A DNA stretch of 64,000 bases, taken from positions 1-64,000 of the forward strand of contig JAHFRD010000008.1 of NCBI GenBank assembly GCA_023258975.1. The letters are read 5' to 3'. Under the pieces are notes generated by a model. It saw nothing but the letters and a program-made list of their open reading frames with translations. It was not told the origin of the DNA and searched no databases. The DNA comes from Hydrogenophilales bacterium (GTDB lineage Bacteria; Pseudomonadota; Gammaproteobacteria; Burkholderiales; Thiobacillaceae). The translations under genes were made by a program, and so were the position numbers. Positions 1 to 20,644 of this stretch are shown here, piece after piece (positions within the stretch are counted from its first letter, which is position 1; every line of letters starts with the position of its first letter).

Positions 1-2670
1 ATTCTCCGGCAGGCGCCCGGCATTGAGCGCGGCGATCTTGTCCGCGCCCCACTGCCGCACGGCGGCGGCGCGCAACACGAATTCACCGGGCGAGAGCCAG
101 GCCAGGAGGTTGTCGGAAGTGTCGGAGCCGGGGCCGGTGATGAGGCCGCCGGTGGCTTTTTTCGGCGCCGTGTAATTGGTGTCCAGGGCGTATTGCCCCT
201 GCGCCTGGACGATCACCTGCTGGATGATGGGGTTCTTGCTGGCGAATGCCTGCAAGGCGGCTTGCGCGGCCTGTAAGGCTTTTTCCGCTGCATCCTGATC
301 GATGCCGATCTTGATCGCCTCCAGGTTCTTGGCCATGTTTTGTAGCGCCAGGAGATCGTTGAAGGCCTTTCCCTTGTCCGCCAGGGCTTTCTCCTCTCCC
401 TTCGCCAGGGCCAGGTTCTCGATTTCGGCGACGGACTTGGCCAACCCGGAGAGCACCAGGCTGGATTCCGTTCCCGCCTCCTTCATCGCCAGCAGTTGCG
501 CGCGCAACGCCTCCACCCCGTTCAGCGCGGCGGCGGTATCGCCCGCCACGGCGGCCTGGCGCGCGGCGGCGGTGCCAGCGTCGAAATCGGCCAGGGTCTT
601 CTCCTCGGCCTTCTTCTCCGGGCCGGCAAGCAGCTTCTTCTCGAATTCTGCCTGTTTCTTCAGCGCATCACGGCGTTTCGTCTGCGCCTCTTCAACCGCC
701 TTGGCCGCGTCCTGGTAGACCTTGGTCTGCGCCTCCAGCGCCGCCTTGATTTGCGGCGTCAATTCCTCCTGGGTGAGCTTCAGGGCGCCGCTGTGGTCCT
801 TCTCCAGTTTCAGGCGCGCGGCCAGGATAGGCCTGAGTTCCGCCATCGCCTTCAGGCGCGCGTCGCGTTCGGCGGCGGCGGCGTCCTGGGCCTTCTGGTC
901 GCCCTGATCGCCACGCTTGGCCTCGGCCTCATAGAGCGCGTTGTAGTAGGTGATGGCGCCAGCCAGGCGGTCGCGGTAGGCCTTCAGTTCCTTGGTGGCC
1001 AACGCGGAGGCCTCGGCGCCGGTCAGGGTCAGAACGTCCTGATACTGGCTGGTCTGGGCCAGCAGCGCACCCGTGGCGGAGAGTGATTTGATGCGCGCGG
1101 CAGCGAGTGCTTTTTCTTGCTGCACATGCTCGTAGAGCGCATAGCCTGCCGCCACCAGCCCGGCGGCGACCAGCACCCAGGGCGATGCGATGAGCGCCGC
1201 GTTGAGCAGACTGGCCGCGCCCGTGGCCATCTTGAGATGCCCTGCCAGCAGCGTCAGCGGGTTACGCAGCGCCATCCATGCGACACCGGCGGTGCCGGCG
1301 ATTCCTCCCACCGCGACCAGGCCGGTCAGATAGGTCTTGAGTGCGCCATCCAGGTCGTTGAACGCGCCAATTCCCGCACGCAGCGCATGCACCACCGGCA
1401 ACAGGCCGCCGCTTACGGCCTGTCCGGCCGTGTTCTTCATTTCGTTGAATTCGTTGGAGAGGCGCGCGCTGTTCGCCGCCCAGGATTGCGCGGCCTCCAG
1501 CGCCGGGCCTGAGAACGCACGATTCAGTTCCGCCGCGAACTTCGGCAAAAAATCCGCCGCCATCACCTTGCCGGTTTCCAGCAGCTTGTTGAACTCCGCC
1601 TCGGACACACCCGCCGCCTTCGCGGCCAGGGCGAAGGCGCCGGGGATGCGCTCGCCCAGCTGGCCGCGCAGCTCCTCGGCGCTGACCGTGCCCTTGCTCA
1701 TCATCTGAGAGACGGCCAACAAGGCGCCGCTCATGTCCGGCGCGGACAAGGACAGGGCGCGCGCGGCGCTGGCCACGCCGGTAAAGATGTCGCGCGCGCC
1801 CTGGCCTTCCAGTTTCGTGCCACGGGCGGCGGCGGCCAGTTTCGCAAACGCGGCGCCGGCTTCCAGCACGGGCAGCCCGAGCGTGGACGCGGTGGCGCGC
1901 AGGAATTCCATTTCTTTCGCGGCGGCCTGCTCGCTACCCGTGGCATAGCGCAGCGCGGAATTCATCGCCGTAAAGCTATCGCTCACGCGCAACACCGCCG
2001 CGCCGGTAGCCACCAGACCGGCCCCGCCAGCGGCGGCGGAGAGCAGCGCCACGCGCGCATCGCCCAGCGACTTTCCCCAGCCATTGGTGGACTGGGTTAA
2101 TTCTGCCGTGCGCTCGCGCAGCTTCACTTTGGCTTGCGCCAGTTCCGTCACCGTCAGCGTACCGCTCTTGCGCAGCCGCTCATAGGCCAGATTGACCGCA
2201 TTGATTTCAGAGGTGACGGCGCGGTGATCGCCCAAGCCCAACCTGGCGCGCGCGGCATCATTGGCGCCGCCTGCCGTCTTGCTGGCGGCCAGGCCAGCGC
2301 TGATGGCAGATCGGTCTGTGGCGAGTAACGCCGCAGCCAGCGAGGCTTTCTGGTAGTCGGCCGCCAGACCGGCCACATTTTCCCGTGAGGTACGCAGCGC
2401 GTTGTTCTGCCCGTTCAGCGACTTTTCGAGCGCGGCGACCTCTTTTTGCGCGGCGGCGATGTCCTTGGCAAAAGCCTTCCCGTCCCCGGACACCTCCGCC
2501 TGGCGCTTGAAATACTCGACCCGGCGCAGCGCATCGGCCATCGCCTTGGCGGAATCCTGCGCCCGCTTCTCCATCTTGGCGATGGACTCGGTCGAGGCAT
2601 CCACAGCCTTCTTGAGTCCGGCCGCATCACCGCTTATTCTGAGATTGAGACCAATGTCTGGATTTGCCAT
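1..2670 (-). CDS. Tail tape-measure protein, outer prophage (3' end outside window)
   Basis: This frame stays open for 890 codons from the ATG at 2670 to base 1 and continues beyond the window. The N-terminus (MANPDIGLNLRISGDAAG) is typical of tape-measure proteins. It is followed by long alanine-, lysine- and glutamate-rich helical stretches suited to a coiled coil that sets tail length. The gene follows the tail chaperone pair, the standard place for a tape measure. Its start codon overlaps, on the opposite strand, the start region of a small membrane-protein gene. Function rests on context and composition; no catalytic domain can be judged without the C-terminus. Confidence 0.85.
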   Translation of the reverse strand, partial: MANPDIGLNLRISGDAAGLKKAVDASTESIAKMEKRAQDSAKAMADALRRVEYFKRQAEVSGDGKAFAKDIAAAQKEVAALEKSLNGQNNALRTSRENVAGLAADYQKASLAAALLATDRSAISAGLAASKTAGGANDAARARLGLGDHRAVTSEINAVNLAYERLRKSGTLTVTELAQAKVKLRERTAELTQSTNGWGKSLGDARVALLSAAAGGAGLVATGAAVLRVSDSFTAMNSALRYATGSEQAAAKEMEFLRATASTLGLPVLEAGAAFAKLAAAARGTKLEGQGARDIFTGVASAARALSLSAPDMSGALLAVSQMMSKGTVSAEELRGQLGERIPGAFALAAKAAGVSEAEFNKLLETGKVMAADFLPKFAAELNRAFSGPALEAAQSWAANSARLSNEFNEMKNTAGQAVSGGLLPVVHALRAGIGAFNDLDGALKTYLTGLVAVGGIAGTAGVAWMALRNPLTLLAGHLKMATGAASLLNAALIASPWVLVAAGLVAAGYALYEHVQQEKALAAARIKSLSATGALLAQTSQYQDVLTLTGAEASALATKELKAYRDRLAGAITYYNALYEAEAKRGDQGDQKAQDAAAAERDARLKAMAELRPILAARLKLEKDHSGALKLTQEELTPQIKAALEAQTKVYQDAAKAVEEAQTKRRDALKKQAEFEKKLLAGPEKKAEEKTLADFDAGTAAARQAAVAGDTAAALNGVEALRAQLLAMKEAGTESSLVLSGLAKSVAEIENLALAKGEEKALADKGKAFNDLLALQNMAKNLEAIKIGIDQDAAEKALQAAQAALQAFASKNPIIQQVIVQAQGQYALDTNYTAPKKATGGLITGPGSDTSDNLLAWLSPGEFVLRAAAVRQWGADKIAALNAGRLPEN

Positions 2671-2896
2671 GTCGCGTCAATTCAAGTTCATCTGGCTGCC
2701 GCTCATCATCATGGCGGCATGCCTTCTGGTCGCCTGGCCATACTGGCTGGGCGTGCCCGTTCCCGCGTGGCTGCTGCCCGTCCAGGCGCTGCTGTTCCCG
2801 CTCCTCATGGCGCTCCTCGTCTGGCTGATTGCGCTGCCGGTGCGCGCCGTCCTGCTCGGGTTCGGCGCCGCCGTCTTAGGCATGTTCGGGCGTTGA
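2654..2896 (+). CDS. Small hydrophobic membrane protein on the counter-strand of the tail operon
   Basis: This frame encodes about 80 residues (75 if the second ATG at 2669 is used). It has two strongly hydrophobic segments, one around FIWLPLIIMAACLLVAW and one around LLPVQALLFPLLMALLVW, and a basic C-terminus. Third positions are mostly G or C, as in real genes here. It lies against the direction of all neighbouring tail genes, between the chaperone and the tape measure. Its ATG at 2669 and the tape-measure ATG share the tetramer CATG. A weak GAGA precedes the first ATG. Function is unknown; a holin-like or superinfection role is only a guess. A chance antisense frame is the alternative, but the membrane pattern and codon use argue against that. 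Confidence 0.55.
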   Translation: MSGFAMSRQFKFIWLPLIIMAACLLVAWPYWLGVPVPAWLLPVQALLFPLLMALLVWLIALPVRAVLLGFGAAVLGMFGR

Positions 2897-3333
2897 GCCC
2901 CGCACCGCCGCCCGCCACACGCTCCACGGGTAATCCCACACCATCGCGTGGCCGTGGCTGATGAGCGCGCATGCGGCGGCCTCTAGGTCGCGGCGGGCGC
3001 GGGCGGGGTCTGAGCCAGCGCGGCCTGGCCGATCTCCGCCAGCTTCGCCCGCAGCGCGAAAAAATCCGCGTTCACCGCCCGCGCCGCGTTAAACACGGTA
3101 CGAATCTGGCTCGGGGTGAACGCCTCGATGGCCGCCGGCGTGAGGTCGGTCAGCAGCGCCAGGTCGGCCAGGTCTACCCCGTCGATCAGCGCGGTGCCCA
3201 CCAGGTCGAACTCGGCGGGCGCCGTCTCCAGGGTTTTCAGCCAGTTGCGGATGTCCGCCACGGTCAGCTCGCGCACCGCGATGTCGCGCTCGTCCAGGGT
3301 CAGGGTTTGGGTTTGGGTTTGGGTGTGGCGCAT
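2876..3333 (-). CDS. Tail assembly chaperone, -1 frameshift (G-GT type) product, outer prophage
   Basis: The zero-frame product (2983-3333, 116 aa) starts MRHTQTQTQTLTLDERDIAV and ends at TAG 2983. The -1 frame is open across that stop to TAA at 2876 and adds a tail containing RRDLEAAACALISHGHAMVW, which looks like the T extensions of lambda-type G-GT chaperones. A canonical slippery heptamer TTTTTTC (complement of 3058-3064) lies in the zero frame 26 codons before the stop, and the -1 frame has no stop after it. Such pairs assemble tail tube around the tape measure. The exact slip point is inferred. Confidence 0.7.
3058..3064 (-). other. Candidate -1 ribosomal frameshift site TTTTTTC
   Basis: On the minus strand the codons read GAT TTT TTC, giving the heptamer T TTT TTC, a classical X XXY YYZ slip site. 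Shifting here joins the short tail chaperone to its -1 extension ending at 2876 with no intervening stop. I see no other canonical heptamer in the overlap. Confidence 0.5.
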
Positions 3334-3351
3334 GGGGGCTCCTAACGCGGT

Positions 3352-3383
3352 TCAAAAGACGCCGGCGAGACGCCGGCGCTACA
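3352..3383 (-). repeat. REP-like palindrome (TGTAGCGCCGGC family)
   Basis: Read on the minus strand it begins TGTAGCGCCGGCG and ends GCCGGCGTCTTTT, with arms able to pair. It sits between the tail-tube and chaperone genes. The same core recurs near 4629, 15394, 15464, 24830, 25826 and 51341, in both prophages. The T-run after the hairpin could give it terminator or attenuator activity. Confidence 0.65.
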
Positions 3384-3385
3384 GT

Positions 3386-4120
3386 TCAGCGCGCCAGGCG
3401 CACGGTGAAATACTGGCTGACGCCCACGCCGGTCTTGGTCGTGTCCTTGAGCAGCTTGCCCTTCACCTCCAGGCCAGCGAAGTCGTCGCCGATCAGGGAG
3501 AGGCTGGCCAGGGCGCCGAGGCGCACGCGGTGGGCGTCTACGTCGGCGGCCTTGCCGCTGCGCGCTTCGTTCAGGCCGGCGAAGGCCAGCTCGTATTCCT
3601 TGCCGCTGCTCACCAGTGCCTGCACCAGATCGGCGGATACAGCGGTGTAGTCCACCAGGATGGCGGCGGCGGCGGCAATATCGGACGTGGCCGGAATGAA
3701 CAGGCCACCGGCGCGCAGCTCGTAGTCGGTGCCCGCGTCGTAGGTGACGGTGCCGGCCGCGTTGGTCACGGCGGCGATGGCGCTGGCCGGCTTGGCCAGG
3801 CGGATCAGGCCGCCCGGATAGGCCACGTGCGCCTCATCGGCGATGGCGCCGGCGGTGATCGCCTCGGCGCTACCGTAGAGCGCGCGCGCCAGGTTCTCGG
3901 CGGAGAGATCGTGCAGGGTCATGGAGACCTCCACCGCGCCGATGCGGCGCACCTCATTCATGGTTCCGCCACCGGGCTGGGTATGGTCCTTCAGCTCCTT
4001 CACGTCCTCGCTGACGCCGAAATCCAGCTTCGAGACGTTGCCGATCTCGGCGAGCGGCGCGGCGGCGCCGACTTCGCGCAGATAGATTTTTCCGGAACCG
4101 ATGTAGCTGTAGTCGGGCAT
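3386..4120 (-). CDS. Major tail tube protein, outer prophage
   Basis: This 244-residue protein opens MPDYSYIGSGKIYLREVGAA, a start typical of tube proteins of long-tailed phages. It continues with acidic and beta-prone segments. It lies directly after a Gp37-like tail terminator and before the frameshifted chaperone, which is where a siphovirus tube gene belongs. No sheath gene accompanies it, unlike the inner prophage, which has sheath plus tube. The assignment rests on N-terminal resemblance, size and order. Confidence 0.75.
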   Translation of the reverse strand: MPDYSYIGSGKIYLREVGAAAPLAEIGNVSKLDFGVSEDVKELKDHTQPGGGTMNEVRRIGAVEVSMTLHDLSAENLARALYGSAEAITAGAIADEAHVAYPGGLIRLAKPASAIAAVTNAAGTVTYDAGTDYELRAGGLFIPATSDIAAAAAILVDYTAVSADLVQALVSSGKEYELAFAGLNEARSGKAADVDAHRVRLGALASLSLIGDDFAGLEVKGKLLKDTTKTGVGVSQYFTVRLAR

Positions 4121-4138: not shown

Positions 4139-4573
4139 TTACTCGACGGGGATGATCAGACGGGCCTCATAGGCCAGGGGAAACCAGCCGGCCGCCGGGG
4201 TATAGCCGGGCCGGGGCGCGTTGACGCGCTGCAATGGGGGGTGGATGGGGTCGGGCCGGTAGCCCGCCAGCGCGGCGACGATCTCCGCCAGGCGCTCGCC
4301 GGCCAGCGCGCGCAACGCCGCGCCGCCATCCTGCGCCGCGTGGCGCGCGAACAGCACCACCAGCCAGCGTTGAAACACGATCTGGCGGGCGCCATCGTGC
4401 GACGCCTCGCCCAGGCGCTCGCCGTCATAGACGACATATACGGCCGGGGATTGCGCGGCGGATTCGTTCAGCTTCGCCAACTCCCCCGCGCCCGCCACGT
4501 GGGCGAGCGCCGGCACCCGCTCACGCAGGTGGGCGATCAGGGTGGATTCGAGGGAGAGGTGGTTGCGCGGCAT
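4139..4573 (-). CDS. Gp37-like tail terminator/minor tail protein
   Basis: This 144-residue protein starts MPRNHLSLESTLIAHLRERV and contains a central hydrophobic strand pattern (FQRWLVVLFARHAAQDGG) seen in Mu Gp37-type (DUF1834-like) proteins, which cap the tail tube and join it to the head. It lies immediately upstream of the tail-tube gene, 18 bases away. The inner prophage has its own Gp37 at 19,200-19,682, so the two tails are encoded separately. The family link is by pattern and order rather than a strong motif. Confidence 0.6.
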   Translation of the reverse strand: MPRNHLSLESTLIAHLRERVPALAHVAGAGELAKLNESAAQSPAVYVVYDGERLGEASHDGARQIVFQRWLVVLFARHAAQDGGAALRALAGERLAEIVAALAGYRPDPIHPPLQRVNAPRPGYTPAAGWFPLAYEARLIIPVE

Positions 4574-4628
4574 GGCGGACAGAGTGCCGCATGCGTGTGA
4601 GGGTGGGGATGCTGACGGGGGTCAGCGG

Positions 4629-4650
4629 GTTGTAGCGCCGGCGCTACAAC
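4629..4650. repeat. Perfect 22-bp REP-like palindrome
   Basis: Two 11-base arms (GTTGTAGCGCC and its complement) form an uninterrupted palindrome. It covers the stop codon (4644-4646) of the upstream gene and lies before the Gp37-like gene. It is the most compact member of the TGTAGCGCCGGC repeat family in this window and could form a stem in RNA from either strand. Confidence 0.7.
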
Positions 4651-5003
4651 CCCGCCCCCAGGCGCCACACTTCATCCGCCTGTTCCGGCGTGGCGCCGAT
4701 GGCGGCGATCATTGCCGCCACCATCGGGTGCGCGCGGTGGATTTCCACGCTGTACTCCCACCAGTCGCGCAGACCACGCGGGCCGGCGGCGACGGTGGCT
4801 TCCACCGCGTCACGCAGGCCGGCCTGATTGAGCGCCAGGCGGATTTGGCGGGCGCTGATGGCCTGGATGGACGGCGGCGACGGGATCATGCTCGGCGGGA
4901 GATCGTCGCCGGACTCATAGAGGGTCGCGGAGCCATCCCCGATGGGCACGCAGACGATGTAGGGCTGATCGTCCGAGGAGAGCGGGAGCGTGGCGGTCCT
5001 CAT
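4644..5003 (-). CDS. Hypothetical head-tail region protein (119 aa)
   Basis: The protein starts MRTATLPLSSDDQPYIVCVP. Its C-terminal half is helical (SIQAISARQIRLALNQAGLR, then WWEYSVEIHRAHPMVAAMI). The motif 'aISaRQiRlALnqaGLRdaVEaa' followed by a tryptophan-rich helix is common in small phage proteins encoded among tail genes, where their role is undefined. It is tightly packed behind the preceding gene, which ends 2 bases before its ATG. The stop codon lies within a REP-like palindrome. I cannot assign a function beyond the morphogenesis context. Confidence 0.65.
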   Translation of the reverse strand: MRTATLPLSSDDQPYIVCVPIGDGSATLYESGDDLPPSMIPSPPSIQAISARQIRLALNQAGLRDAVEATVAAGPRGLRDWWEYSVEIHRAHPMVAAMIAAIGATPEQADEVWRLGAGL

Positions 5004-5793: not shown

Positions 5794-6471
5794 TTATCGA
5801 TACCGCTCCGGATGCGTCAGGCGGTCGCGGCCCTGGCTGTCCGGCAGGGCCAGGTTCACCACGACGCCGGCCGGGCGTTGTCGTTTCGGGTCGATGCCCA
5901 GCGCATCGAAATAGCGTTGCCGCGCCGCCTTGGCCAGGCTGCGATAGATGTCCGATTTCGCGCGGTGGTCCACGCTGTCGGCCTGGATGGTGCTGTCGCC
6001 GTCCGTGGCGTACAGCGCCGCCAGCTGGTCGAGCAGCAGTCCGGCGGCATAGCTGGCCACCGGCTCATGGTCGGCGCTCGGCAGGGTATCGGTGGTGGCG
6101 TCCAGCACATGCGGAATCTGAATCGTCACCCGCACCGTCTGGCCCGGCCCGATGGCGCTCACCAGGCGGATTTCCTGGCCCGCCGGGGTGTTGGCCACCC
6201 CGACGAACACGGCATCCAGCAGGATCGGCGGCCAGCGGCCGATGGGGTATTCCAACGCCGCCACCACGCTACGCCCCGCCACCCAGGCGGTCGGCAGCGG
6301 CAGAATCGCCGTGCCGTCGGCGACGACATCTTCAACCACCGCACGCGGCAGGTCGCGGCTGTACTGCGCCACGGCCAGGCCGATGGCGCGGTCGCGTTCC
6401 GTGGTGGAGACCCTCCCCGCATCGTCGCGGAGCAGATCCACCACCAGGGCCTGGATAGTCGCCAGCGACAT
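5794..6471 (-). CDS. Putative head-tail connector/adaptor, first outer-prophage gene past the insertion
   Basis: This 225-residue protein starts MSLATIQALVVDLLRDDAGR. Helical ends flank a beta-rich middle, and a late helix carries 'YRSLAKAARQRYFDALGID', a layout usual for head-tail adaptors. It is the first outer-prophage gene beyond the left boundary of the inner prophage. In the uninterrupted outer phage it would follow the capsid gene now ending at 41,077. Its upstream sequence has a GGTGG element before the ATG, but its normal promoter or operon leader is now 34.5 kb away. Confidence 0.6.
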   Translation of the reverse strand: MSLATIQALVVDLLRDDAGRVSTTERDRAIGLAVAQYSRDLPRAVVEDVVADGTAILPLPTAWVAGRSVVAALEYPIGRWPPILLDAVFVGVANTPAGQEIRLVSAIGPGQTVRVTIQIPHVLDATTDTLPSADHEPVASYAAGLLLDQLAALYATDGDSTIQADSVDHRAKSDIYRSLAKAARQRYFDALGIDPKRQRPAGVVVNLALPDSQGRDRLTHPERYR

Positions 6472-11077: not shown

Positions 11078-12075
11078 TTCTTCACCCCGGCGCCACGGCG
11101 GGCTTTCTTCTTCTCGACGCCCAGATAGGCGGCGCGCGGCATGGCCTGGAGATGGGTGATGCTGCCGCCCTTGTCGTCGAGACTGAGCGTCCGCTCACCA
11201 ATCAGGAACACGTCGTCGATGCCTTCATGCGGGATGATCACGCGCACCTGAGTATTGGCCGCCCAGAGGCCGCCGTTGTGGCTCCAGCCCGCCACCTGCA
11301 TATCGAGGCGATGCGCCCTGGCCAGGCGCCGATTGCGCTCCAGCGTGGCGCGGCGATCGCAGCCCCCAACGCCCTGTCCGTGCTTGTCGGCAATGACGTG
11401 CATGGGCCTGAAATAGCTGATTCCGGCGTCCCGAGCGACCGCCGAATGCGCCGAGTTGGTGGCGTGGTCGTAGCCCTTGATCCGGTACTCGCTGTAGCGC
11501 AATTTCCACTCGTCAACCACCGCATAGCTCATTATGTTGATGCCATACTCCAGCGTGGCCACCGGCGCCGCATTGGTCGGGCTGGTCAGGATCAGGCCGC
11601 CATCCGGGAGGGCATAGAGCAGCAGGTTGGCCGCCCGGGCAGCATTGATCAGCGCATTCGCCGGCACCTCGCACTGCATGGAAAAATCCAGCACCACGGC
11701 GGTCTGAACATCGATCTTCACAGGCACTTTGAAGGCCGCGCAAAGCCGCTTCACCACCTCCCCTAATTTGAGGCCTTTCATGGTCACGGAGTGCTGGCAA
11801 TCCACCAGCTCGCGGCTCAGCGTGCGGGCATCCAGATGAATGGTGTGGTTCTCGGCAGATACCTGGCGGTGCAGGCTGTCCGGCCGCACGGTGGCCACCA
11901 GGTGGCCATCGGCCAGCACCTGCACCACGGTGTTCGGCGTCAGCCCCAGCGCATCACCCGCGCCGGGCCGGGTGATGGCCAGGCGGACGCTGGCGCACAG
12001 ATCATCCACGGACTCGCGGATCTCCACCTGCTGCCAGTAGGCATAGCGGCGGCCGTCGAATAGGAGTTCAACCAT
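11074..12075 (-). CDS. Baseplate hub protein gpP (Mu gp44-like)
   Basis: This 333-residue protein opens MVELLFDGRRYAYWQQVEIR and carries the late-control D / gpP-type hub pattern, including VCDR-like KHGQGVGGCDRRATLERNR near residue 240. It overlaps both the gpN gene (8 bases) and the spike gene (4 bases). The protein forms the central hub that holds the spike. Its C-terminal lysine-arginine tail (KKKARRGAGVKK) is compatible with a scaffold contact. Confidence 0.8.
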   Translation of the reverse strand: MVELLFDGRRYAYWQQVEIRESVDDLCASVRLAITRPGAGDALGLTPNTVVQVLADGHLVATVRPDSLHRQVSAENHTIHLDARTLSRELVDCQHSVTMKGLKLGEVVKRLCAAFKVPVKIDVQTAVVLDFSMQCEVPANALINAARAANLLLYALPDGGLILTSPTNAAPVATLEYGINIMSYAVVDEWKLRYSEYRIKGYDHATNSAHSAVARDAGISYFRPMHVIADKHGQGVGGCDRRATLERNRRLARAHRLDMQVAGWSHNGGLWAANTQVRVIIPHEGIDDVFLIGERTLSLDDKGGSITHLQAMPRAAYLGVEKKKARRGAGVKK

Positions 12076-13276
12076 AGACCACCCCGCGCACGAACAGCGG
12101 GTGCCTCACCCCATTGCGGGCGATGAAGCCATCCTCATCCACCCCCAGGCGATGCGCCAGCACGGTGGCGGGCAGGGCGGCGACGACGGTGCGGGTGCTG
12201 GCCGGCGCCAGGTCTTGCGCCATGAGGGCGGCGATCAGGTCGGCGCGCATCGTGGCGCCGGCCTGGAAGACAGGATCGGGCGCGCCGGGGAGGATGGCGT
12301 CGATGGCGGCGAGCACGCTGGCCAGGGCCGCATCGCGTTCGCCTTCCGCCTGATAGCTGGCCAGCGCGGTGCCGGCTGCGGCCGTGGCCAGCAGCATCCC
12401 GCGCAGCGCGGCCTCGGCGACGGCATTGGCGCGTGCGTCAGCGTCAAGGCTATCAATGCCGCCGCCACGCGCGGCGGTGATGGCCTCGGTGGCCAGCCTG
12501 GCCACCACGCGGGGGCGGTCGCTGGCCGCCAGGTCATCGGATTCCGCATCCAGGCCCAGAGCATCTGCCAGGCCGCGCAAAGCGGCGGCGTACTGGCCGG
12601 GCAGCGCCATCAACGCGGCCAGGTCGCCCTTGATGCCGGCGAGCAGGTTCTGCGCCTGGCTCGCCCAGGTCAGCGGTAGCGTGGCCAGCGCCAGCACGGT
12701 GCGCAGACCTTCCAGCTTGCCTTGGACCTTGGCGACGAATGCAGTCATGGCCGTCGCGCTCAGGGGCCGGGGCGTGTATTGCGCCACCGCCACATCGGCC
12801 GTCTGGCGGATCGAGGCGGCGGCCACGTCCACCTTGTCCGGCGTCGCCGAGAGGGGGTGGCGGCTGATGGTGTAATCACGCGCCTGGCCAGTGCGGGCCA
12901 GATCGTAGTCGGCGCCTCCACCAGGGACGAAATCCACCTGGATGGTGCAGTAGCCGCCCTCCTTATTGCTCTCATGGATCGACCAGGACTGCACCCGCAC
13001 CCACAGTTGTCCCAGCCAGGGATGTATCAACCACGCTGGGCCGGGTTGGGCGAGGAGGTCGAGAAACAGATTCCGCTCCAGGTCGTAATCCGGCCCAATG
13101 AAATAGGCGGCCAGCTTGTAGCCGGGCGCCTTGCCGCCCAGGTCTTCCACGGCCGGCGCCTCGGCGCCGGGGAACTCATGCACCGCCAGGCGGCGGCCGC
13201 CACTGGTCTCGTGGGAGTCGGTCAGGAACTCGACGCCCCGGAATGAGGCGCGGGCCATACGGTCGGCGTAGCTCAT
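12068..13276 (-). CDS. DNA circularisation/tail protein gpN (Mu gp43-like)
   Basis: This 402-residue protein starts MSYADRMARASFRGVEFLTD, with GRRLAVHEFPGAE close behind. That is the signature of the N-terminal domain called DNA circularisation protein N in Mu. In the virion it is a distal tail protein. The rest is helical and alanine-rich. It overlaps the tape-measure stop by four bases and is followed by gpP, the conserved Mu order. Confidence 0.85.
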   Translation of the reverse strand: MSYADRMARASFRGVEFLTDSHETSGGRRLAVHEFPGAEAPAVEDLGGKAPGYKLAAYFIGPDYDLERNLFLDLLAQPGPAWLIHPWLGQLWVRVQSWSIHESNKEGGYCTIQVDFVPGGGADYDLARTGQARDYTISRHPLSATPDKVDVAAASIRQTADVAVAQYTPRPLSATAMTAFVAKVQGKLEGLRTVLALATLPLTWASQAQNLLAGIKGDLAALMALPGQYAAALRGLADALGLDAESDDLAASDRPRVVARLATEAITAARGGGIDSLDADARANAVAEAALRGMLLATAAAGTALASYQAEGERDAALASVLAAIDAILPGAPDPVFQAGATMRADLIAALMAQDLAPASTRTVVAALPATVLAHRLGVDEDGFIARNGVRHPLFVRGVVYG

Positions 13277-15306
13277 CGCGGCGCCCCCGTGTGGACGTTG
13301 CCGGTGTTCATCTTCGCGTCAACGCCCTTGGTCGCCAGCCGCGCCCGCGTGATCTGTACGCGGTCATCGGTGACGGAAATTGTCACATCGGCCTTTATTT
13401 CTGGATGGTTCTGGGCGCGCAGCTGGGCCAGTTCCGCCTCGGCGGCTTTTTGACCTTTGATTTTGTCGCCGTTGAACCACTCCCAAATATGACCACCGGA
13501 GTCAGTAGCGCCAGCGATCAACTTGCCGATCTCCCAGCCAGTTCCGGCTGCGGCGACCGGCGCAAGCATCTTTCCGCCGAGCTTTGCCGCCTTTGCGGCA
13601 GCTGGGCTTCTCGCAAGGCTGCCAGCACGATCAATGGCGCCTCCCGCCACCCGAGGGAGCTTGCCGCCGTTCATCACCAGCGCAGCCCCACCCGCCGCCA
13701 CAGCAAACGCCGAGATCGCGCTGGTCGCGGCAATCGTCGCGCCGGACAGCAACGGGTACTTGGTCACCATGTCGCCAAACAAGTCCGCCACTTTTCCGAT
13801 GGCCGGGGTCAACTTGTCCATTGCATCGATCTTGGACATGTCCACCTTTTCCGCCGCAATCCGCGTCCTCACCCCGGCTTTCTCGGCCATGTAGCCATAA
13901 TCGGTATCGATGATCCTGCCGGACAATTGTGTGATCGCCTGGTCTACCTCACGGCCGACCGTCTTGTTGCGCAGACCAAACAGGGCGCCCTGGGCCTGCA
14001 TGTCCTGGAAGAACATGCCCATGCTCTGGCCTTCAGCCATACCCTTGATGGCCTCGATTGCCGCGTCCTGCTCTTCCTTGTTTTTCGCTTTCTGGATTTT
14101 GGCGATGGCCGGCGCCAGGTTCTTGTTCTTGGCGATCTCGGATTCGATGACGTTTTGCCAGGCGGTCAGTGGGTCCACGCCCTGGGCGCGTTGATCCATC
14201 AGAAACTTGTACAGATCGCCACGCCCGGACTTCTGGAAGTCTTTTGCCGTGTCGTTGGATTTCAGCTTGTTGAGCAGGTTCTTGACGTTGATCGCGGCCT
14301 CGTCGGAAGAGCCCGCCGTGGTGCGCGCCTGCTGCAAGAGCACCAGCAGCCGCTTGAATCCATCCTCACCCGCCAGACCTGCACTCTTGGCCAGTGGCAA
14401 AAGGCCAGGTAGATGCTTGGCCATATCGTTCTTCTCGAACGCGCCGGCCGTCGCGGCGGCCGAACTGATGCCCAGCAGCCGCTTGGCACCCGTGACATCC
14501 TTGGCGTAACCGCTGCCGATGAACCCGCCCATCATGGCGGCCACGTCCTGGCCAGAACCACCCTGGCCCGTCGTGACCTTGCCGATAAACGGCAGCAGCT
14601 CCAGCGCCCCGGCGACACCGCCCACCTGGTTGTCGGCAATCAGCTTCTCCAGCGCATCCATTGCCGCGTCTTTGGTGATGCCCGTCCCGATCGCCTTAGT
14701 GACCGCCGCACGTATCTGTGTCTCGCCCAGCTTGCGGCCATCCGCGCCATATTCCGCATAGGCGGTATTGGCCAGCAAGCCCAGACGTTCGTCGTAACTC
14801 ATTGCCGCCTTGGCCGGGTCGCGCAGCACATACCCGGCGGCGGTGATGCCGGCGCCGATGGCGGCGGCGGTCTTGATGCCGGCCATGACCTTCTGTTGCG
14901 TGGTCAGCTTGCCCATCTCATTGGTGAGCTGCTCGACCTTGGCCCGCATCGCCTCGGCGGCGCGGGTCTGTTCATTGAAAGACAGGGTGCCGGAATCTTT
15001 CAGCCGGTTGTAGGCCGCAACGGTTTGCTGAATCTCGCGCTGGATGGCCTGCTCGGAACGCATGCCCAGGGTCTCGCGGGCATGGGACAGACGCTCGTAA
15101 CTGCTGCGCTGGCGGGCGGCGGCCTGTTCCGTCGCCGTAGCGGCCTGCTCGGCCGCGCGCTCTGTCGCGGAGGCCGCCTTTTCGGCTGCGGAGATGCTGA
15201 CGGCGGCGGTCTTCTCGGCGGCGTCCTGGACGGCCGCCATGCCCTTGGCGACACCGTCGTCGCGCATCTTGAGCGCGACTTCTACATTGACTGCCGAGTT
15301 AGCCAC
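13273..15306 (-). CDS. Tail tape-measure protein, inner prophage
   Basis: This 677-residue protein starts with GTG at 15306, preceded by GGAG. It has a long alanine- and glutamate-rich coiled coil over the first 150 residues (AAEKTAAVSISAAEKAASA). Glycine-rich hydrophobic segments follow (IGAGITAAGYVL, GATIAATSAISAFAVAAGG) and may act as membrane-inserting regions at injection. It follows the frameshifted chaperone and precedes gpN. It is shorter than typical Mu tape measures, suggesting a shorter tail. A late-promoter palindrome lies 65 bases upstream. Confidence 0.85.
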   Translation of the reverse strand: MANSAVNVEVALKMRDDGVAKGMAAVQDAAEKTAAVSISAAEKAASATERAAEQAATATEQAAARQRSSYERLSHARETLGMRSEQAIQREIQQTVAAYNRLKDSGTLSFNEQTRAAEAMRAKVEQLTNEMGKLTTQQKVMAGIKTAAAIGAGITAAGYVLRDPAKAAMSYDERLGLLANTAYAEYGADGRKLGETQIRAAVTKAIGTGITKDAAMDALEKLIADNQVGGVAGALELLPFIGKVTTGQGGSGQDVAAMMGGFIGSGYAKDVTGAKRLLGISSAAATAGAFEKNDMAKHLPGLLPLAKSAGLAGEDGFKRLLVLLQQARTTAGSSDEAAINVKNLLNKLKSNDTAKDFQKSGRGDLYKFLMDQRAQGVDPLTAWQNVIESEIAKNKNLAPAIAKIQKAKNKEEQDAAIEAIKGMAEGQSMGMFFQDMQAQGALFGLRNKTVGREVDQAITQLSGRIIDTDYGYMAEKAGVRTRIAAEKVDMSKIDAMDKLTPAIGKVADLFGDMVTKYPLLSGATIAATSAISAFAVAAGGAALVMNGGKLPRVAGGAIDRAGSLARSPAAAKAAKLGGKMLAPVAAAGTGWEIGKLIAGATDSGGHIWEWFNGDKIKGQKAAEAELAQLRAQNHPEIKADVTISVTDDRVQITRARLATKGVDAKMNTGNVHTGAPR

Positions 15307-15370
15307 GAAAAAAACTCCAGGACCGGGGGGTGACTGGAGCTTATGGGGTGAGGCTGACGGGGTCAGGGCG

Positions 15371-15382
15371 GGAAACGTTTCC
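15371..15382 (-). promoter_or_regulatory. Palindrome GGAAACGTTTCC, putative late activator site (tape-measure block)
   Basis: The core is embedded in a 16-base perfect palindrome (15369-15384). It lies 65 bases upstream of the tape-measure GTG. Downstream on the minus strand, 31 bases after the core, comes CTCCAGTCACCCC. A matching CTCCGGTCACCCC lies 31 bases after the copy at 32658. The core-to-leader spacing suits an activator site centred near -45. The promoter call is inference from repetition. Confidence 0.6.
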
Positions 15383-15393
15383 CGGTGGGGACA

Positions 15394-15428
15394 TGTAGCG
15401 CCAGCATCTCTGCCGGCGTCTTAAAAAA
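15394..15428 (+). repeat. REP-like element followed by T/A-rich run
   Basis: It starts TGTAGCGCCAGC and ends TGCCGGCGTCTTAAAAAA. It is a diverged member of the family seen at 3352 and 25826. It sits between the chaperone extension and the tape-measure gene, just upstream of the palindromic promoter. In this position it may end or attenuate the upstream transcript. Confidence 0.55.
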
Positions 15429-15463
15429 CAGCCGGCTGGATACCGAAGGGTAGGGGCTTCATC

Positions 15464-15477
15464 AAGCCGGCGCTACA
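15464..15477 (-). repeat. Half REP-like element
   Basis: This is the sequence AAGCCGGCGCTACA, the complement of the TGTAGCGCCGGCTT half-site. It lies just after the stop of the frameshifted chaperone and is oriented opposite to the copy at 15394. The pair brackets about 35 bases and could fold together. Confidence 0.5.
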
Positions 15478-15923
15478 TCACTCGAAAGTCCGGCCATCCA
15501 TCGCCGCCGCCAACCTGGCCCACAAGAACAACTCGGGTAGCGGCAGGGCCTTGGCCACCGGGATGGGCTGGTGCAGCACCTTCGCCAACAGCCCCACGGC
15601 GGTGAGGATGCGGACTACTTTTTTTCAGCGGCCTGTTCCTCCGCCGTCTGCGCTGGCGGCTCGCCGGCCGGCGCTTCGGGCGTCTCATCGGCCAGCATCA
15701 GCCCATCGGCGATCTTCTCCGCCGCCCGATAGTCCGGGCCACGCAACTGCAGGATCAGCGCCTCATCGGTGCCGGTCAGGCTGGCGATCAAGGTGATGCG
15801 CTGCGCCACGCCGCCCCGCTGGTCGAACGCCAGGTAGTCGGCGGCGGTGGTGTAGTCGCGGAAGGTCAGGCTGGCCACCGTGGTGGTGCCGAAGGTGAGA
15901 GGGTGCTTGAGGGCGAGCTTCAT
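15478..15923 (-). CDS. Tail assembly chaperone, -1 frameshift product (Mu gp41-type), inner prophage
   Basis: The zero-frame protein (15615-15923, 102 aa) opens MKLALKHPLTFGTTTVASLT and ends EEQAAEKK at a TAG. Directly before that stop the codons GAA AAA AAG form the slip heptamer A AAA AAG. The -1 frame then runs 46 codons to TGA at 15478 with a sensible hydrophobic sequence (VVRILTAVGLLAKVLHQPIP). Mu-like phages make their chaperone pair the same way. The extension fills most of what would otherwise be a 300-base gap before the tape measure. Confidence 0.8.
15618..15624 (-). other. Ribosomal -1 frameshift site AAAAAAG
   Basis: The minus-strand codons read GAA AAA AAG TAG, so the heptamer A AAA AAG abuts the stop codon, a very efficient arrangement in bacteria. 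Slippage fuses the 102-residue chaperone to a 46-residue extension ending at 15478. Confidence 0.75.
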
Positions 15924-15924
15924 T

Positions 15925-16170
15925 TCACAACCCCAGCTTGGTTTTGACGATTGCATACGCCACCGCCCCCATCGCCTGCTGCACGGTCTGGCCGGCGGCC
16001 AGGGGGGCGGTGATCAACGGGGCGCACTCGGATTGGCTGGCCTCCACGCTGAGGCGGCGCAGCTCAGTGTCGCCATCCATCTCGGCCACCTCAATGGCGG
16101 CATCCCAGAGGTCGGAGATGGTGACGCGCTTGATCTGGTAGGTCAGGGTCTTGGTTTTGCTCAAGGGCAT
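15925..16170 (-). CDS. Small tail-assembly region protein (gp40 position)
   Basis: This 81-residue protein begins MPLSKTKTLTYQIKRVTISD and is mainly helical. It ends one base before the chaperone start codon, so it is translationally coupled to it. In Mu the slot between tail tube and chaperone is gp40. I see no diagnostic motif. Role in tail assembly is inferred from context only. Confidence 0.6.
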   Translation of the reverse strand: MPLSKTKTLTYQIKRVTISDLWDAAIEVAEMDGDTELRRLSVEASQSECAPLITAPLAAGQTVQQAMGAVAYAIVKTKLGL

Positions 16171-16182
16171 GATGGGCTCCGA

Positions 16183-17355
16183 TCAGGTGTAAGAGAGATT
16201 GACGACGACTTCGTTTGCGCCGATCGCCGTGGTGTCGCTGTCGGCGAGGCCGGCGGTGATCGCGTAGGCGATGCCCGCGCTCAGGCGCAGGCCGATGCCG
16301 CTCTGGATGTTGAGCGTCTGCCCGGCCGCGAGCGGGAACACCCACACCGGGACATCCGTCCCCACCGTCGGCGCGGACGTCTTGTTGTAAACCTTGAGGA
16401 AGCGCGTCGTCGCGGCGAGGTTCGTGGCGATGATCGAGGCGAGGGTGCCGCTGGTTGTCTTGACGCTGGTGGCGTTGGTCGAGGCCGCGCTGATGGCCTT
16501 GTGCTGCGCGGTCACGCCAAATGAGGTGGCGTGAGACTGGACGACGCTGCCGCTGACCGTCACCGCGATCGCCTTTGCGGAGACGGTATCGCCGCGCCCG
16601 CCGGTGATCTCGGCGGTCAGCTCGTTGATGTCCTGCACGCAAACCGCGCCCAACACCAGATTGGTGTTGCTGGCCGGTGCGGCGGCGCCGTTGAGCGCGC
16701 GTATCTGGAGGTAATAGGTCTCGTTGGGGTCGGGGACATTGCGGGTCAGGCAGAGATTATAGGTCTTGCCGTTGGCCGTATCGGCACCGCGCGTCGCGAA
16801 CCACGCCTCGTCGACGAACAGTTCGATTTCCAGGATCGAGTCGGACGCGCTGGTGTTGATGGTGGACCCCGCCGACACGGCGCCGTTGCCGCCGTTGGTC
16901 GCCTGATATTTGCCGACGGTGGCGCTGGTGCCATCCAGCACCCAGCGCGCGGCCATGTCGCCGGCGGCGTTCACCAGCTCCAGAAAAAACGTCTGGTTGG
17001 CGATGCGCTGGCTGATGCGGCCGATGAACCACGCCCGCACCGGGATGGAGAGCGGGGTCAGACAGCGCAGGATCGTATTTTCGTTGGCGGCGGTGCCGGC
17101 GGCCAGGGTGAGTTCGCCGCCGGCGAGGGTGATGGTCTGCCCGGCGCCTTGCGCCAGGACAGCCCACTTCTCGGGGTCCAGGGCGGCGCCGTTGAAATCG
17201 TCGCGCCAGGCGGCGCGCAGGCTCGACACGAGCGAATTGGCCTCTCGATCCAGGGACGCCTCCCCCCGCATCAGCGCGTGCCCATCAGCCGTACCCGCCT
17301 GCTCGATCCAGTGCGTCTTGCCCTGCTCGTCGACGAGCTTCAACAGGTGGCTCAT
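16183..17355 (-). CDS. Putative virion surface protein with lectin-like domain
   Basis: This 390-residue protein has a middle domain beginning DDFNGAALDPEKWAVL (about residue 52) with GQTITLAGGELTLAAG. That pattern resembles jelly-roll carbohydrate-binding domains. The C-terminal 120 residues (RFLKVYNKTSAPTVGTDVPV, then GIAYAITAGLADSDTT) resemble a module seen in phage decoration proteins. It overlaps the tail-tube gene by four bases and precedes the gp40-like gene, a position with no counterpart in Mu. It may coat the tail or capsid and bind surface sugars; this is inference. Confidence 0.6.
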   Translation of the reverse strand: MSHLLKLVDEQGKTHWIEQAGTADGHALMRGEASLDREANSLVSSLRAAWRDDFNGAALDPEKWAVLAQGAGQTITLAGGELTLAAGTAANENTILRCLTPLSIPVRAWFIGRISQRIANQTFFLELVNAAGDMAARWVLDGTSATVGKYQATNGGNGAVSAGSTINTSASDSILEIELFVDEAWFATRGADTANGKTYNLCLTRNVPDPNETYYLQIRALNGAAAPASNTNLVLGAVCVQDINELTAEITGGRGDTVSAKAIAVTVSGSVVQSHATSFGVTAQHKAISAASTNATSVKTTSGTLASIIATNLAATTRFLKVYNKTSAPTVGTDVPVWVFPLAAGQTLNIQSGIGLRLSAGIAYAITAGLADSDTTAIGANEVVVNLSYT

Positions 17356-17714
17356 GAAATCTGCTCGGACGTATTGGCCATGATGGTCAGCTTGCTCTCG
17401 CCATCGGTGATGCCCACCGGCTCAGTCACGAAGGCCTGGCTGAGCAGGTGGACATGGCCATCGGCCAGTCGCACCGTCACGTCCTCGCCCGCGATGGCAT
17501 TCAGCGCGACCACGTCCACCCCGCCCAGCAGGTTGATGGACAGTTCCAGCTTGGCGGCCACGCCGGTTTCGGTGAAGCCGCCATCCTCCGGCAGTCGCCC
17601 GCCCTTGTGCTCGCGCTTGTTGCCGCTGGGGGTGAAGGTGCCGGGCTTTTCCGCCAGCGGCAGCTTGCCGATGCTGGGCACCGAGACGGTGCGAATGTTG
17701 TTGATTTGAGCCAT
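17352..17714 (-). CDS. Tail tube protein (Mu gpM-like)
   Basis: This 120-residue protein starts MAQINNIRTVSVPSIGKLPL and contains LPEDGGFTETGVAAKLELSI, a pattern of Mu gpM-type tube proteins. Length matches Mu gpM (about 118). It lies 24 bases after the sheath gene, the usual order. It polymerises to form the inner tube of the contractile tail. Confidence 0.9.
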   Translation of the reverse strand: MAQINNIRTVSVPSIGKLPLAEKPGTFTPSGNKREHKGGRLPEDGGFTETGVAAKLELSINLLGGVDVVALNAIAGEDVTVRLADGHVHLLSQAFVTEPVGITDGESKLTIMANTSEQIS

Positions 17715-17737
17715 GTTCGTGTCCTCAGCAAATTAGG

Positions 17738-19195
17738 TCAGGCGGCCACTTTCCGGAACTGCGCGCGGCCGGCCAGGATGTAGAAGGGCGAGAGCACCAC
17801 GGGGGTATCCAGGTAGTTGAAGCGGCTGGGGTTGGTGGGGTCTTGCTCCACCACCAGGTGGTCCTTGTAGTAGCCGTATTCCTGTACCCATCCGAACTCC
17901 TGCATCAGCGTGTGCTGGTAGAGGCTGAGCAGGTAGGCGCGCACGTCGTCGATGGTGGTGATGCGCAGGCCGGGCCGATAGCCCTCATTGGTTTTGGCCG
18001 CCGCCGTGCCGGTGAAACGCTTGATGGCACCGATGCGCTGCTCGTAGCGGATGCGCTCCATTACCTCGCCGGCGTTGATGTCCAGATATGCGTCGTCAGT
18101 CGAGCCATCCGGCCGGAACTGGTACATGGAAATCAGGCGCTTGATGCTGCACGAGCCGTCGCGGGTCATCTGCATCACGCTCATGCCCTTGTAGAGCAGC
18201 GAGTTGCTGTTGGTCCAGTCGTGATAGCTGACGCCGACCATGCCGGTGAGCGGGGTGCCTTCCAGGGATTCCACCGGGTTGTTGTACAACTTCGGCCCGG
18301 CTGCCGCCGCCACGATGGCCGCCGCTTCCCAGGTGGAGGTGGGGTTCAGTTCCAGCGAGAGGCAGGCGATGTGCTCGTAGTTCTTGGCCGTCCCGAAGGT
18401 GGCCGCCGTGGCGTAGTCGCCACGGAAGGCGGTGAAGGCGCGGAAGCCGGCCTGGACGGGGGGAGCGTAACGGCGCTGGCTCTCGGTGTGCCAGGCAGCC
18501 AGGGTGGCGGCGTCGTTGATGCCCAGCGCCACATACCACCAGCGCTGCAGGCCCAGGATGGCGGACAGCGTGCCGGTCGCCGGGTCGCCGGTGCCGCCGG
18601 CCAGGGCGGCCAGGGTCAGCGCCAGGCCGGTGGGGGTGGGCTCGCCGTACAGGTTGGTACGCAAGTCGATGTTGTTGCCGCACGTGCCCTTGTGCTTGGC
18701 GGTCAGCGTCACCACGCCCAGGGCGGAGGTGGCCGTCACCGGCAGATCGGCATCAGTCATGGCCGCGACGATGGCCGCCGCCACCTGGGTGGTCGTCTGG
18801 CCGGTGGCCAGACCCACGCTGACCAGGCGGCCGGCGATGTACAGGGCCAGGGTACCGGCCACCGTCGGCGCGGCCGTCACCGTGAGCGTGCCGGTAGCCG
18901 CCACCCCGGCGCCGTTGTCGGCGTAGGGCAACAGGTAGAGGTCCAGGGTCGGGTCGATGGCGCGGTAGCGGGCCGCCATCTGCGCCAGCATGGAGCCGGC
19001 GCCGGCCTTGGCCACCGCATCCGCCACACTGGAGACGCGCACCACCTGGCCGGCGGGTGCGGTGCCCGTGGCCAGCTTCTGGCCCACCAGCAGCACGGTG
19101 GGAATGTCACCGCCCAGGCCGGCCTGGGAGCCGTCGATCTCGACGTAGGCGCCGGGATAGCGCAGCGCGGTGGGAACTTGGTTGTACGAAATCAT
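17738..19195 (-). CDS. Contractile tail sheath protein (Mu gpL-like)
   Basis: This 485-residue protein is close to Mu gpL in length (495). It starts MISYNQVPTALRYPGAYVEI, the canonical sheath N-terminus. It ends with the conserved region RPGLRITTIDDVRAYLLSLY and LVVEQDPTNPSRFNYLDTPV. It proves that the inner phage is a myovirus, in contrast to the outer phage, which shows no sheath gene here. It follows gp37 by four bases. Confidence 0.95.
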   Translation of the reverse strand: MISYNQVPTALRYPGAYVEIDGSQAGLGGDIPTVLLVGQKLATGTAPAGQVVRVSSVADAVAKAGAGSMLAQMAARYRAIDPTLDLYLLPYADNGAGVAATGTLTVTAAPTVAGTLALYIAGRLVSVGLATGQTTTQVAAAIVAAMTDADLPVTATSALGVVTLTAKHKGTCGNNIDLRTNLYGEPTPTGLALTLAALAGGTGDPATGTLSAILGLQRWWYVALGINDAATLAAWHTESQRRYAPPVQAGFRAFTAFRGDYATAATFGTAKNYEHIACLSLELNPTSTWEAAAIVAAAAGPKLYNNPVESLEGTPLTGMVGVSYHDWTNSNSLLYKGMSVMQMTRDGSCSIKRLISMYQFRPDGSTDDAYLDINAGEVMERIRYEQRIGAIKRFTGTAAAKTNEGYRPGLRITTIDDVRAYLLSLYQHTLMQEFGWVQEYGYYKDHLVVEQDPTNPSRFNYLDTPVVLSPFYILAGRAQFRKVAA

Positions 19196-19199
19196 GAAG

Positions 19200-19682
19200 T
19201 CACTCCGGTAGGGTGGAGACGTAGGTCAGGCCCGAGTAATTCGGCGGGTCCGGCAGGTAATGGGTGATGAGGGCGTTGAAGGCGTAGCGGTCCGCCCAGT
19301 ACAGGTCGCCATCGGTGTATTCCAGGACGCGGCCGCCCTCCCACTGGATGGGGCGCACGTCCGGTTCGATCTCCCAGCCCAGCAGCAGGTCTTTGACGGC
19401 CTGGCGATAGCGCAGCAGCGCGTCGTCGGTATCGCCCTGGGCATGGGTGCGGGCGTTTTCGATGGCAATGACGACATCGAAGGCAAAACGGCAATCCTCG
19501 GCGCGCTCCCCGGCGTGGTGCACCTGGTCCGCCGCCCGCACGATCCAGCAGGCCGGCAGAGGCAGGGCCTCCGGGCGCAGGCGGGCGTATTCCGCCGCGC
19601 CCGCCACCTGGCGGAACCAGAGGCCGTCGAAAGCGGCTGGCTTGGGGGTGAGGTGGAGAATCAGGGGCTTGAGGCTGAGCAT
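19200..19682 (-). CDS. Mu gp37-like tail terminator
   Basis: The start ATG at 19682 overlaps the gp36 stop (ATGA). The 160-residue protein opens MLSLKPLILHLTPKPAAFDG and ends DLYWADRYAFNALITHYLPD, a pattern of the Gp37/DUF1834 family. It lies between gp36 and the sheath, as in Mu. It probably closes the tail at the head-proximal end. Confidence 0.85.
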   Translation of the reverse strand: MLSLKPLILHLTPKPAAFDGLWFRQVAGAAEYARLRPEALPLPACWIVRAADQVHHAGERAEDCRFAFDVVIAIENARTHAQGDTDDALLRYRQAVKDLLLGWEIEPDVRPIQWEGGRVLEYTDGDLYWADRYAFNALITHYLPDPPNYSGLTYVSTLPE

Positions 19683-20179
19683 CAGAGATCCCAATCGGTG
19701 GATTCCACGGCGCCACCATAGCGCCGGGGCTGGCTTTCGATCATCGGCACGTCCTCGGACGGCGCCGGGCCGCTGGGGGCGGCGGGAATCAGGTCGAGGT
19801 CGCCGCGCGCATGGGATTTGAGGGTGTCGATGGCACCCTCATAGGCCTTTCGGTCGCCATCGGTCATGCGCTCCGCGCCCTGCAGGTAGTACAGGGCGAT
19901 GGTGGAGGCCAGCCGCGCCAGCAGGGTGGTCTGCACCGTGGCGGGGATGCCGTAGGACAGGATCAGCGCGTCGGCATCGGCCAGGGCCTGGTCGATGGCT
20001 GCCAGCGCCAGGGACAGGGCTGCCTGGCATTCGGCCGGATAGACCGTCAGATCGCCGCCCGCCACCGCCGTGCGCAGGGCATCGTCCGGCACCATGTCCA
20101 GGTCGGCGGGCACCGCCAACTGGGCCAGGCGCCGGGCGTTGCTGCGCGCCAGCAGATCGGAGCGGGTGGCGAAGAGCAT
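19682..20179 (-). CDS. Mu gp36-like head completion protein (DUF1320)
   Basis: This 165-residue protein begins MLFATRSDLLARSNARRLAQ. It contains ALAAIDQALADADALILSYG and SIALYYLQGAERMTDGDRKA, the helical signature of DUF1320 proteins that serve as head-tail connectors. It is followed by overlapping gp37. The last 25 residues are proline-rich and probably disordered. Confidence 0.9.
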   Translation of the reverse strand: MLFATRSDLLARSNARRLAQLAVPADLDMVPDDALRTAVAGGDLTVYPAECQAALSLALAAIDQALADADALILSYGIPATVQTTLLARLASTIALYYLQGAERMTDGDRKAYEGAIDTLKSHARGDLDLIPAAPSGPAPSEDVPMIESQPRRYGGAVESTDWDL

Positions 20180-20182
20180 GGC

Positions 20183-20599: not shown

Positions 20600-20618
20600 G
20601 GCGTTCTTCTCCTACGGG

Positions 20619-20637: not shown

Positions 20638-20644
20638 GGTGGGG

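Follow-up and report, generated by a model that had tools for sequence, protein, structure and literature searches.

We analysed a 64,000-nucleotide stretch of DNA from a Hydrogenophilales bacterium (the window; contig JAHFRD010000008.1 of assembly GCA_023258975.1, positions 1 to 64,000). Its left end carries a tail operon of siphophage type on the minus strand. Between the tail assembly chaperone and the tape-measure protein (TMP) genes of this operon, and on the opposite strand, lies an open reading frame (ORF), P0001, which probably encodes a membrane protein of 75 amino acids (coordinates of all features are in Table 1). The plus-strand ATG of P0001 occupies 2669-2671 and the minus-strand ATG of the TMP gene 2668-2670, so that the two divergent start codons share one CATG. 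At the 3′ end of P0001, its last 21 nt also belong to the chaperone extension. Both overlaps had been pointed out in an earlier note on this DNA, and both were seen again here. The start used in that note, an alternative in-frame ATG at 2654, gives 80 amino acids, and the longest form of the ORF (164 amino acids) begins at a TTG at 2402.

Coding signals and predicted structure of P0001

The GC content by codon position of the P0001 ORF was 0.68/0.43/0.87, and that of 29 long window ORFs taken as genes was 0.72/0.51/0.76. This fits coding on the plus strand, unlike the pattern of a competing sense ORF (2677-2883, minus strand), which is inverted (0.41/0.71/0.88) and for which that ORF was rejected. 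The synonymous-codon score of P0001 (.118) ranks 57th in percentile among real frames; as frames antisense to real genes attain the same range, the score does not discriminate. By whole-codon score, another open minus-strand frame, which translates to a charged, low-complexity peptide, reached.216 versus.227 for the plus frame of P0001.

P0001 contains two hydrophobic segments, with Kyte-Doolittle (KD) values of 2.16 and 2.59, and basic residues R3, K6, R59 and R75. From the single sequence, AlphaFold2 predicted a two-helix hairpin (helices 3-26 and 33-74; mean predicted local distance difference test score, pLDDT, 83.9). We considered whether P0001 is a chance ORF in GC-rich DNA, in which long antisense ORFs are common: at least 70 codons stayed open in 3348 of 5000 dinucleotide shuffles, so ORF length alone is weak evidence. 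The uninformative synonymous-codon score and the want of a homologue (below) would suit a chance ORF as well. However, just 12 of the 5000 shuffles combined at least 70 open codons with two hydrophobic segments, the codon-position GC fits the plus strand, and the same layout is found in 36 other loci; we therefore hold a chance origin to be very improbable. Two such segments also occurred in 2 of 232 window ORFs of 60-129 amino acids (a set that excludes P0001, its longest form being 164 amino acids), and both were holin-family matches. Small two-helix membrane proteins are often holins, and a holin, lysis or virion protein would have this architecture. We nevertheless regard such a role as highly unlikely for P0001, since the window holds two holin-family genes elsewhere, P0001 matched no holin family in PHROGs or Pfam, and its orientation runs against late transcription. 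Taken together, the architecture supports P0001 as a probable coding gene, and coding is well supported for the group of similarly placed genes described next. The earlier note took P0001 for a genuine antisense membrane gene, and our results support that claim.

The antisense gene recurs in relatives

No homologue of P0001 was found among 50,697 phage records or among viral contigs; in 60 relative genomes there were only weak matches, in 10 of them (E 0.008-0.1), and Pfam, PHROGs and PADLOC gave no match. Because P0001 has no detectable sequence homologue, we compared the chaperone-TMP slot across relatives instead of the sequence, and P0001 is grouped with other slot genes because it resembles them in size and hydropathy and has the same position, orientation and start overlap. 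Relatives of the chaperone were collected from whole genomes (10 of 399, 6 of 369 and 27 of 398 genomes, with the window's own genome counted each time), viral contigs (75 loci) and named genome contigs (15 loci). The search with 27 of 398 genomes yielded 53 places outside the window's genome, of which 29 were taken in as loci and 24 were left out; from the search with 6 of 369 genomes, L048, a second chaperone hit beside locus L043, was omitted. The resulting set held 134 loci including the window, and 126 were usable after 8 without a TMP on the stretch had been dropped. A locus was called positive when it carried an antisense ORF of 35-140 amino acids whose ATG shares CATG with the TMP ATG and which has a hydrophobic segment of KD at least 1.9.

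The window is one of 37 positive loci among the 126, which together encode 30 distinct proteins of 47-75 amino acids, apart from one of 120. The control consisted of 401 further gene starts from these loci, a number that includes ORFs that are possibly not genes: CATG was present at 166 of them and such an ORF at 1 (Fisher p=3e-24, or 7e-20 using distinct proteins). The gap between chaperone and TMP was shorter than 175 nt in 79 of the 126 loci (mostly 70-140 nt), with no insertion there. It was at least 175 nt in the other 47, and 37 of these have the hydrophobic shared-CATG ORF. By eye, 45 of the 47 long-gap loci hold an antisense gene, one holds a sense gene (L183) and one is a contig end (L076); the earlier note's remark that antisense genes are rare in a tail operon is not borne out for this slot. 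Ten long-gap loci lack the shared-CATG ORF, and among the genes seen by eye are small hydrophobic antisense genes without a shared CATG in L036, L165, and L050 with its duplicate L210. The earlier note had looked to related phages for conservation of the plus-strand frame, and this was borne out in part. In a further 36 loci, which encode 29 distinct proteins besides P0001, the frame is open and the stops that the note named as counter-evidence in relatives keeping the TMP start were not seen, but the frame has no counterpart in the 79 loci without an insertion or, as a shared-CATG ORF, in the ten long-gap loci; the comparison covers relatives of the slot, as no relative close to the P0001 sequence was found.

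K or R is present in the first 8 residues of 25 of the 30 distinct proteins and in the last 10 residues of 28. The small protein of relative L184, modelled with a 24-row alignment, likewise formed two helices (pLDDT 75.8). Eight positive loci come from named contigs, namely Pseudomonas L241-L246 (one a metagenome-assembled genome, MAG) and two further MAGs, L247 and L248; L243-L245 include strains of P. citronellolis and P. toyotomiensis. The TMP start of L184 matched 34 phage records (33 of Pseudomonas, F10 among them, and one cyanophage), and its chaperone matched 33, all of Pseudomonas and again including F10. The annotations of F10 and of five other records fetched via the major tail protein show no antisense gene between the TMP and either the chaperone or the major tail protein. 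In a wider set of TMP relatives with any chaperone type, the CATG layout was found in 1 of 76 usable loci (of 80), L113.

In others of the ten long-gap loci without the shared-CATG ORF, the slot holds other kinds of gene. By eye, L046 has an antisense multi-helix membrane protein, L191 antisense zinc-ribbon membrane genes and L225 an antisense methyltransferase-like gene (2917-3738, minus strand). An antisense exonuclease-like gene lies in L071 (776-1330, plus strand; phrog_255 E=8.5e-10; Rv2179c-like E=4e-5, under cutoff), whose genome, G795, contains 7 chaperone matches. At the slot-like contig end L076/L162 there are toxin-antitoxin-like genes, with a helix-turn-helix by Pfam and VapC-like by eye.

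Protein-level selection and allele replacement

In phages L184, L185 and L186 the first 200 residues of the TMP are 98-99% identical and the flanking DNA is 85-100% identical per 40-nt window, yet the antisense proteins are only 28-44% identical. The same was seen in L168/L169, L172/L174 and L242/L244, with 91-95% identity at the TMP N-termini versus 36-43% in the small proteins. Antisense alleles have thus been replaced between near-identical tails.

Of the 40 pairs whose TMPs are most alike, four were close (at least 75% identity), and three of these four show purifying selection at the protein level. The genes of L185 and L241 differ by 6 synonymous and 0 nonsynonymous changes and so encode the same small protein. 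The nonsynonymous (dN) and synonymous (dS) rates were.14 and.62 for L169/L243 and.08 and.31 for L193/L202, dN/dS being about 0.2-0.3 in both. Because only the ends of the slot are shared with other genes, a second reading frame has little influence on these values. They concern relatives only, no close relative of P0001 having been found.

Antisense alleles covary with one TMP helix in a Pseudomonas-type clade

Within a clade of TMPs beginning M[TS]DVRLS, whose named members are Pseudomonas (L241-L246), we asked where TMP divergence lies. Longer copies replaced shorter copies of the same phages, and the near-duplicates L241 and L181 were retained except where stated. Divergence was concentrated at about residues 500-600 in L184/L185/L186 and in L168/L169 and was more widely spread in L172/L174 and L242/L244; in L185/L241, which share an allele, residues 500-600 are 94% identical. 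A partial Mantel analysis of 20 phages in 50-residue windows peaked at residues 526-575 (partial r.51), and so did one of 22 phages in 25-residue windows (partial r.47-.48, p=0.002, the floor of 500 permutations). When alleles were permuted only among phages of similar TMP backbone, r was.61 in a run on 19 of the 22 (in groups of 10, 6 and 3) and.60 in one on 15 phages, from which L241 and the L173/L181/L187 group had been removed. Both runs gave p=0.0003 (the floor of 3000 permutations; Bonferroni correction would leave about 0.008), and 526-575 ranked highest of 28 windows. A control segment at about 226-275, itself rather variable, had r.27 and p=.17 in the 15-phage run; mean identity was.52 in this segment versus.36 at 526-575.

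Residues 526-575 hold the strongest predicted membrane helix of the TMP (hydropathy peak at 543), flanked by FNxLPxPxR-like and LRNPF-like stretches. Allele-sharing partners (antisense identity.5-.99) were set against phages of equal or closer TMP backbone in 18 directed comparisons; the partner's helix was the most alike in 9 and tied in 3. All 9 successes fall among the 12 comparisons with antisense identity of at least.69. The match between allele and helix is therefore a statistical and not a strict rule. This covariation was measured in relatives and not in the window phage, the TMP of which carries the corresponding module (FNDLDGALKTYLTGLVAVGGIAGTAGVAWMALRNPLTLLAGHL, amino acids 437-479); by motif, its predicted helix (Table 1) is the counterpart of the covarying one.

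These observations bear on two other readings. In one, cis-antisense control, the transcript or competition at the shared CATG would tune TMP synthesis and the peptide would be a by-product. The overlapping start codons are in keeping with it, and so is the fact that, in several loci, AGGTGAT or a similar sequence, where the ribosome probably binds for the TMP, falls inside the first codons of the small gene. Against it stand the purifying selection on the protein in three pairs, the constant hydropathy, the covariation of the alleles with a distant TMP helix, and the same chaperone-TMP order in 89 of 126 loci without a hydrophobic shared-CATG ORF; we judge it unlikely. The YHL of a recurrent MKxYHLV in the small proteins was seen to lie opposite AGGTGAT (L184 3094-3110 and similar loci). 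AGGTGAT, a match to the 16S end, is likely the ribosome-binding site of the TMP, and part of the YHL conservation may come from the other strand.

In the other, the gene would encode an abortive membrane protein, or one resembling a type I toxin, that is kept silent by the late transcript complementary to it. The protein is small and hydrophobic, a complementary transcript is expected, and toxin-antitoxin-like genes lie at one slot-like contig end. But type I toxins usually have one helix rather than two, and neither TMP-matched alleles nor allele replacement would be predicted, leaving this reading with little probability.

A possible role in superinfection exclusion

The reading that we put forward, with an even chance of being right, is that P0001 is a prophage-expressed superinfection-exclusion (SIE) gene in the chaperone-TMP slot that blocks injection via a TMP helix. 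Its product would be a two-helix inner-membrane protein made by the prophage; it would recognise the membrane-inserting helix of a matching incoming TMP and thereby block the injection channel during DNA injection. Exclusion is placed at injection because the variants of a prophage membrane protein follow the membrane helix of the TMP, which carries the DNA. The antisense, shared-start layout would keep the gene independent of the late operon and readable in the lysogen, and late transcription would oppose it when the phage produces a TMP of its own. We infer that the gene is expressed in the lysogen, that its product sits in the membrane, binds the TMP and blocks injection, and that the window gene does likewise. 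A more specific form, which we hold somewhat more tentatively, is a self-recognition pair in which a hypervariable antisense membrane protein and a hypervariable TMP membrane helix would evolve as matched alleles; a phage's own type would be excluded at injection, and late TMP transcription would switch the excluder off. If true, proteins of about 50 residues tracking one TMP helix would indicate a contact surface that can be tested by plating. The reading also bears on how the TMP transports DNA across the inner membrane and on how a lysogen recognises an injecting phage, and the antisense placement would let the late transcription that makes the target also silence the exclusion gene.

A tandem second antisense hydrophobic gene was observed behind the first in L172, L174, L177, L188, L242, L244, L286 and L287; by eye, this second gene varies less from phage to phage than the first does. 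Tandem genes are perhaps stacked exclusion specificities.

Several results weigh against exclusion by P0001. P0001 itself has no detectable homologue, and against a 24-member profile of antisense slot genes hhalign gave a probability of 0.2 and no alignment. A pattern scan found no promoter or terminator near P0001, and no strong Shine-Dalgarno motif was found upstream of the window ATG. In the group, a Shine-Dalgarno motif precedes 7 of 30 distinct antisense starts versus 6.6% of positions antisense to other starts, which is suggestive only; the same motif list gave 0 of 30 at the TMP starts. As to covariation, the control segment at about 226-275 reached r.29 and p=.035 in the 19-phage run, and a weaker second correlation (r about.3-.4) lies at TMP residues of about 151-250. 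The helix was less alike in 6 of the 18 directed comparisons, as in L174/L304 (allele.59, helix.40). In L173/L187 and L181/L187, TMP identity at 500-600 is.88 and.89, yet antisense identity is.35. As to selection, the fourth close pair, L173/L181, with 1 synonymous and 2 nonsynonymous differences, decides nothing, and dN exceeds dS in L173/L187 and L181/L187 (42% identical).

Comparison with known systems

Locus L100, found by TMP similarity, carries an antisense gene 12 nt upstream of the TMP (4528-4740, minus strand) that resembles Imm_superinfect (PF14373; E=7e-6, 26.3 bits, just under the cutoff of 27.9) and phrog_1039, ‘immunity to superinfection’ (E=6e-4). PF14373 is presumably linked to T4 Imm. 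T4 Imm-like proteins, like P0001, are small membrane proteins, and this weak match stands antisense beside a TMP; judged from the match, it points the same way as an exclusion role. Unlike them, P0001 and the 24 members of our alignment A4 have no Imm_superinfect match, and homologues of the L100 gene were found on its own contig only.

HK97 gp15, like P0001, lies between the tail chaperone product and the TMP and is a small protein (62 amino acids) with a hydrophobic segment. PMC10883804 describes it as an exclusion protein; hybrids carrying the tail tube and TMP genes of HK022 escape its block. Unlike P0001, gp15 is in sense orientation, a further point against our assignment; it belongs to the YebO-like family PF13974 and has, by eye, one strong hydrophobic segment. 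P0001 matched neither PF13974 nor phrog_5031, both of which gp15 matches.

Other prophage or membrane systems act on the TMP by different means. Ltp of TP-J34 is a prophage protein acting on the TMP of an incoming phage, but it is a repeat-containing lipoprotein of the cell surface, and its proposed binding site is the charged C-terminal region of the TMP (PMC3952083). SNIPE is membrane-located and associates with siphophage TMP during injection, but is a DUF4041-domain nuclease that cuts the entering DNA (PMC13190303). Tab of Pseudomonas phage JBD26 is likewise prophage-expressed and TMP-directed, but blocks tail assembly and is paired with a counter-defence protein (PMC10884400). P0001 could similarly be an assembly blocker acting on the TMP after entry, as its gene adjoins the chaperone and the alleles covary with the TMP. 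This we find improbable, for an all-membrane hairpin is predicted for the protein, the TMP segment that covaries is itself predicted to be a membrane helix, and inhibition by Tab is tied to the TMP C-terminal region (PMC10884400). The antisense layout was not described in the titles and abstract openings of the open-licence PMC literature searched, and the terms ‘tape measure’, ‘antisense’ and ‘opposite strand’ did not occur in a review of superinfection exclusion (PMC11436027).

Other features of the window

Table 1. Features of the tail operon, the antisense gene and other phage genes in the window.
Feature	Position	Strand	Evidence
TMP, C-terminal part cut by contig end at position 1	1..2670	-	Pfam TMP_3 E=6e-29; PHROG tape measure
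Predicted TMP membrane helix (TMP amino acids 443-467), then LRNPLTLLAGHL	1270..1344	-	Motif correspondence
CATG common to both divergent start codons	2668..2671	both	
P0001, antisense gene for a 75-amino-acid, two-helix membrane protein (predicted)	2669..2896	+	ORF, hydropathy, AlphaFold2
Chaperone extension, -1 frame, as translated from 3001	2876..3001	-	Reading frame
Tail assembly chaperone, zero frame	2983..3333	-	phrog_7608 (no function given) E=1e-24; phrog_1442 tail assembly chaperone E=0.0017
Major tail protein	3386..4120	-	phrog_807 E=5e-68
Tail terminator	4139..4573	-	PF23840 E=2e-33
Mu-like myophage own TMP	13273-15306		
Mu-like myophage sheath	17738-19195		
Mu-like myophage transposase	27491-29161		
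Holin family gene	32732-33058	+	phrog_1528
Capsid/protease (head gene)	41077-43386		
Portal (head gene)	46012-47478		
Second holin family gene	51817-52170	-	phrog_1528

The chaperone extension, which would arise by a -1 frameshift, ends in ...MVWDYPWSVWRAAVRGSTPEHA* with its stop at 2876-2878, and YPW-containing extensions of similar kind are present in several relatives. Judging from positions 5794-6471, 12068-30571 and 41077-47478, two prophage modules appear to be present in the window: at its left end the siphophage tail, and in addition a Mu-like transposable myophage. Insertion of the myophage may have split the siphophage; the head genes are assigned to neither. Between the major tail protein and the chaperone, at about 3350-3400, there is a short inverted-repeat-like element (gccggcgctacag type), which explains 54 short matches to other places in the genome of the host.

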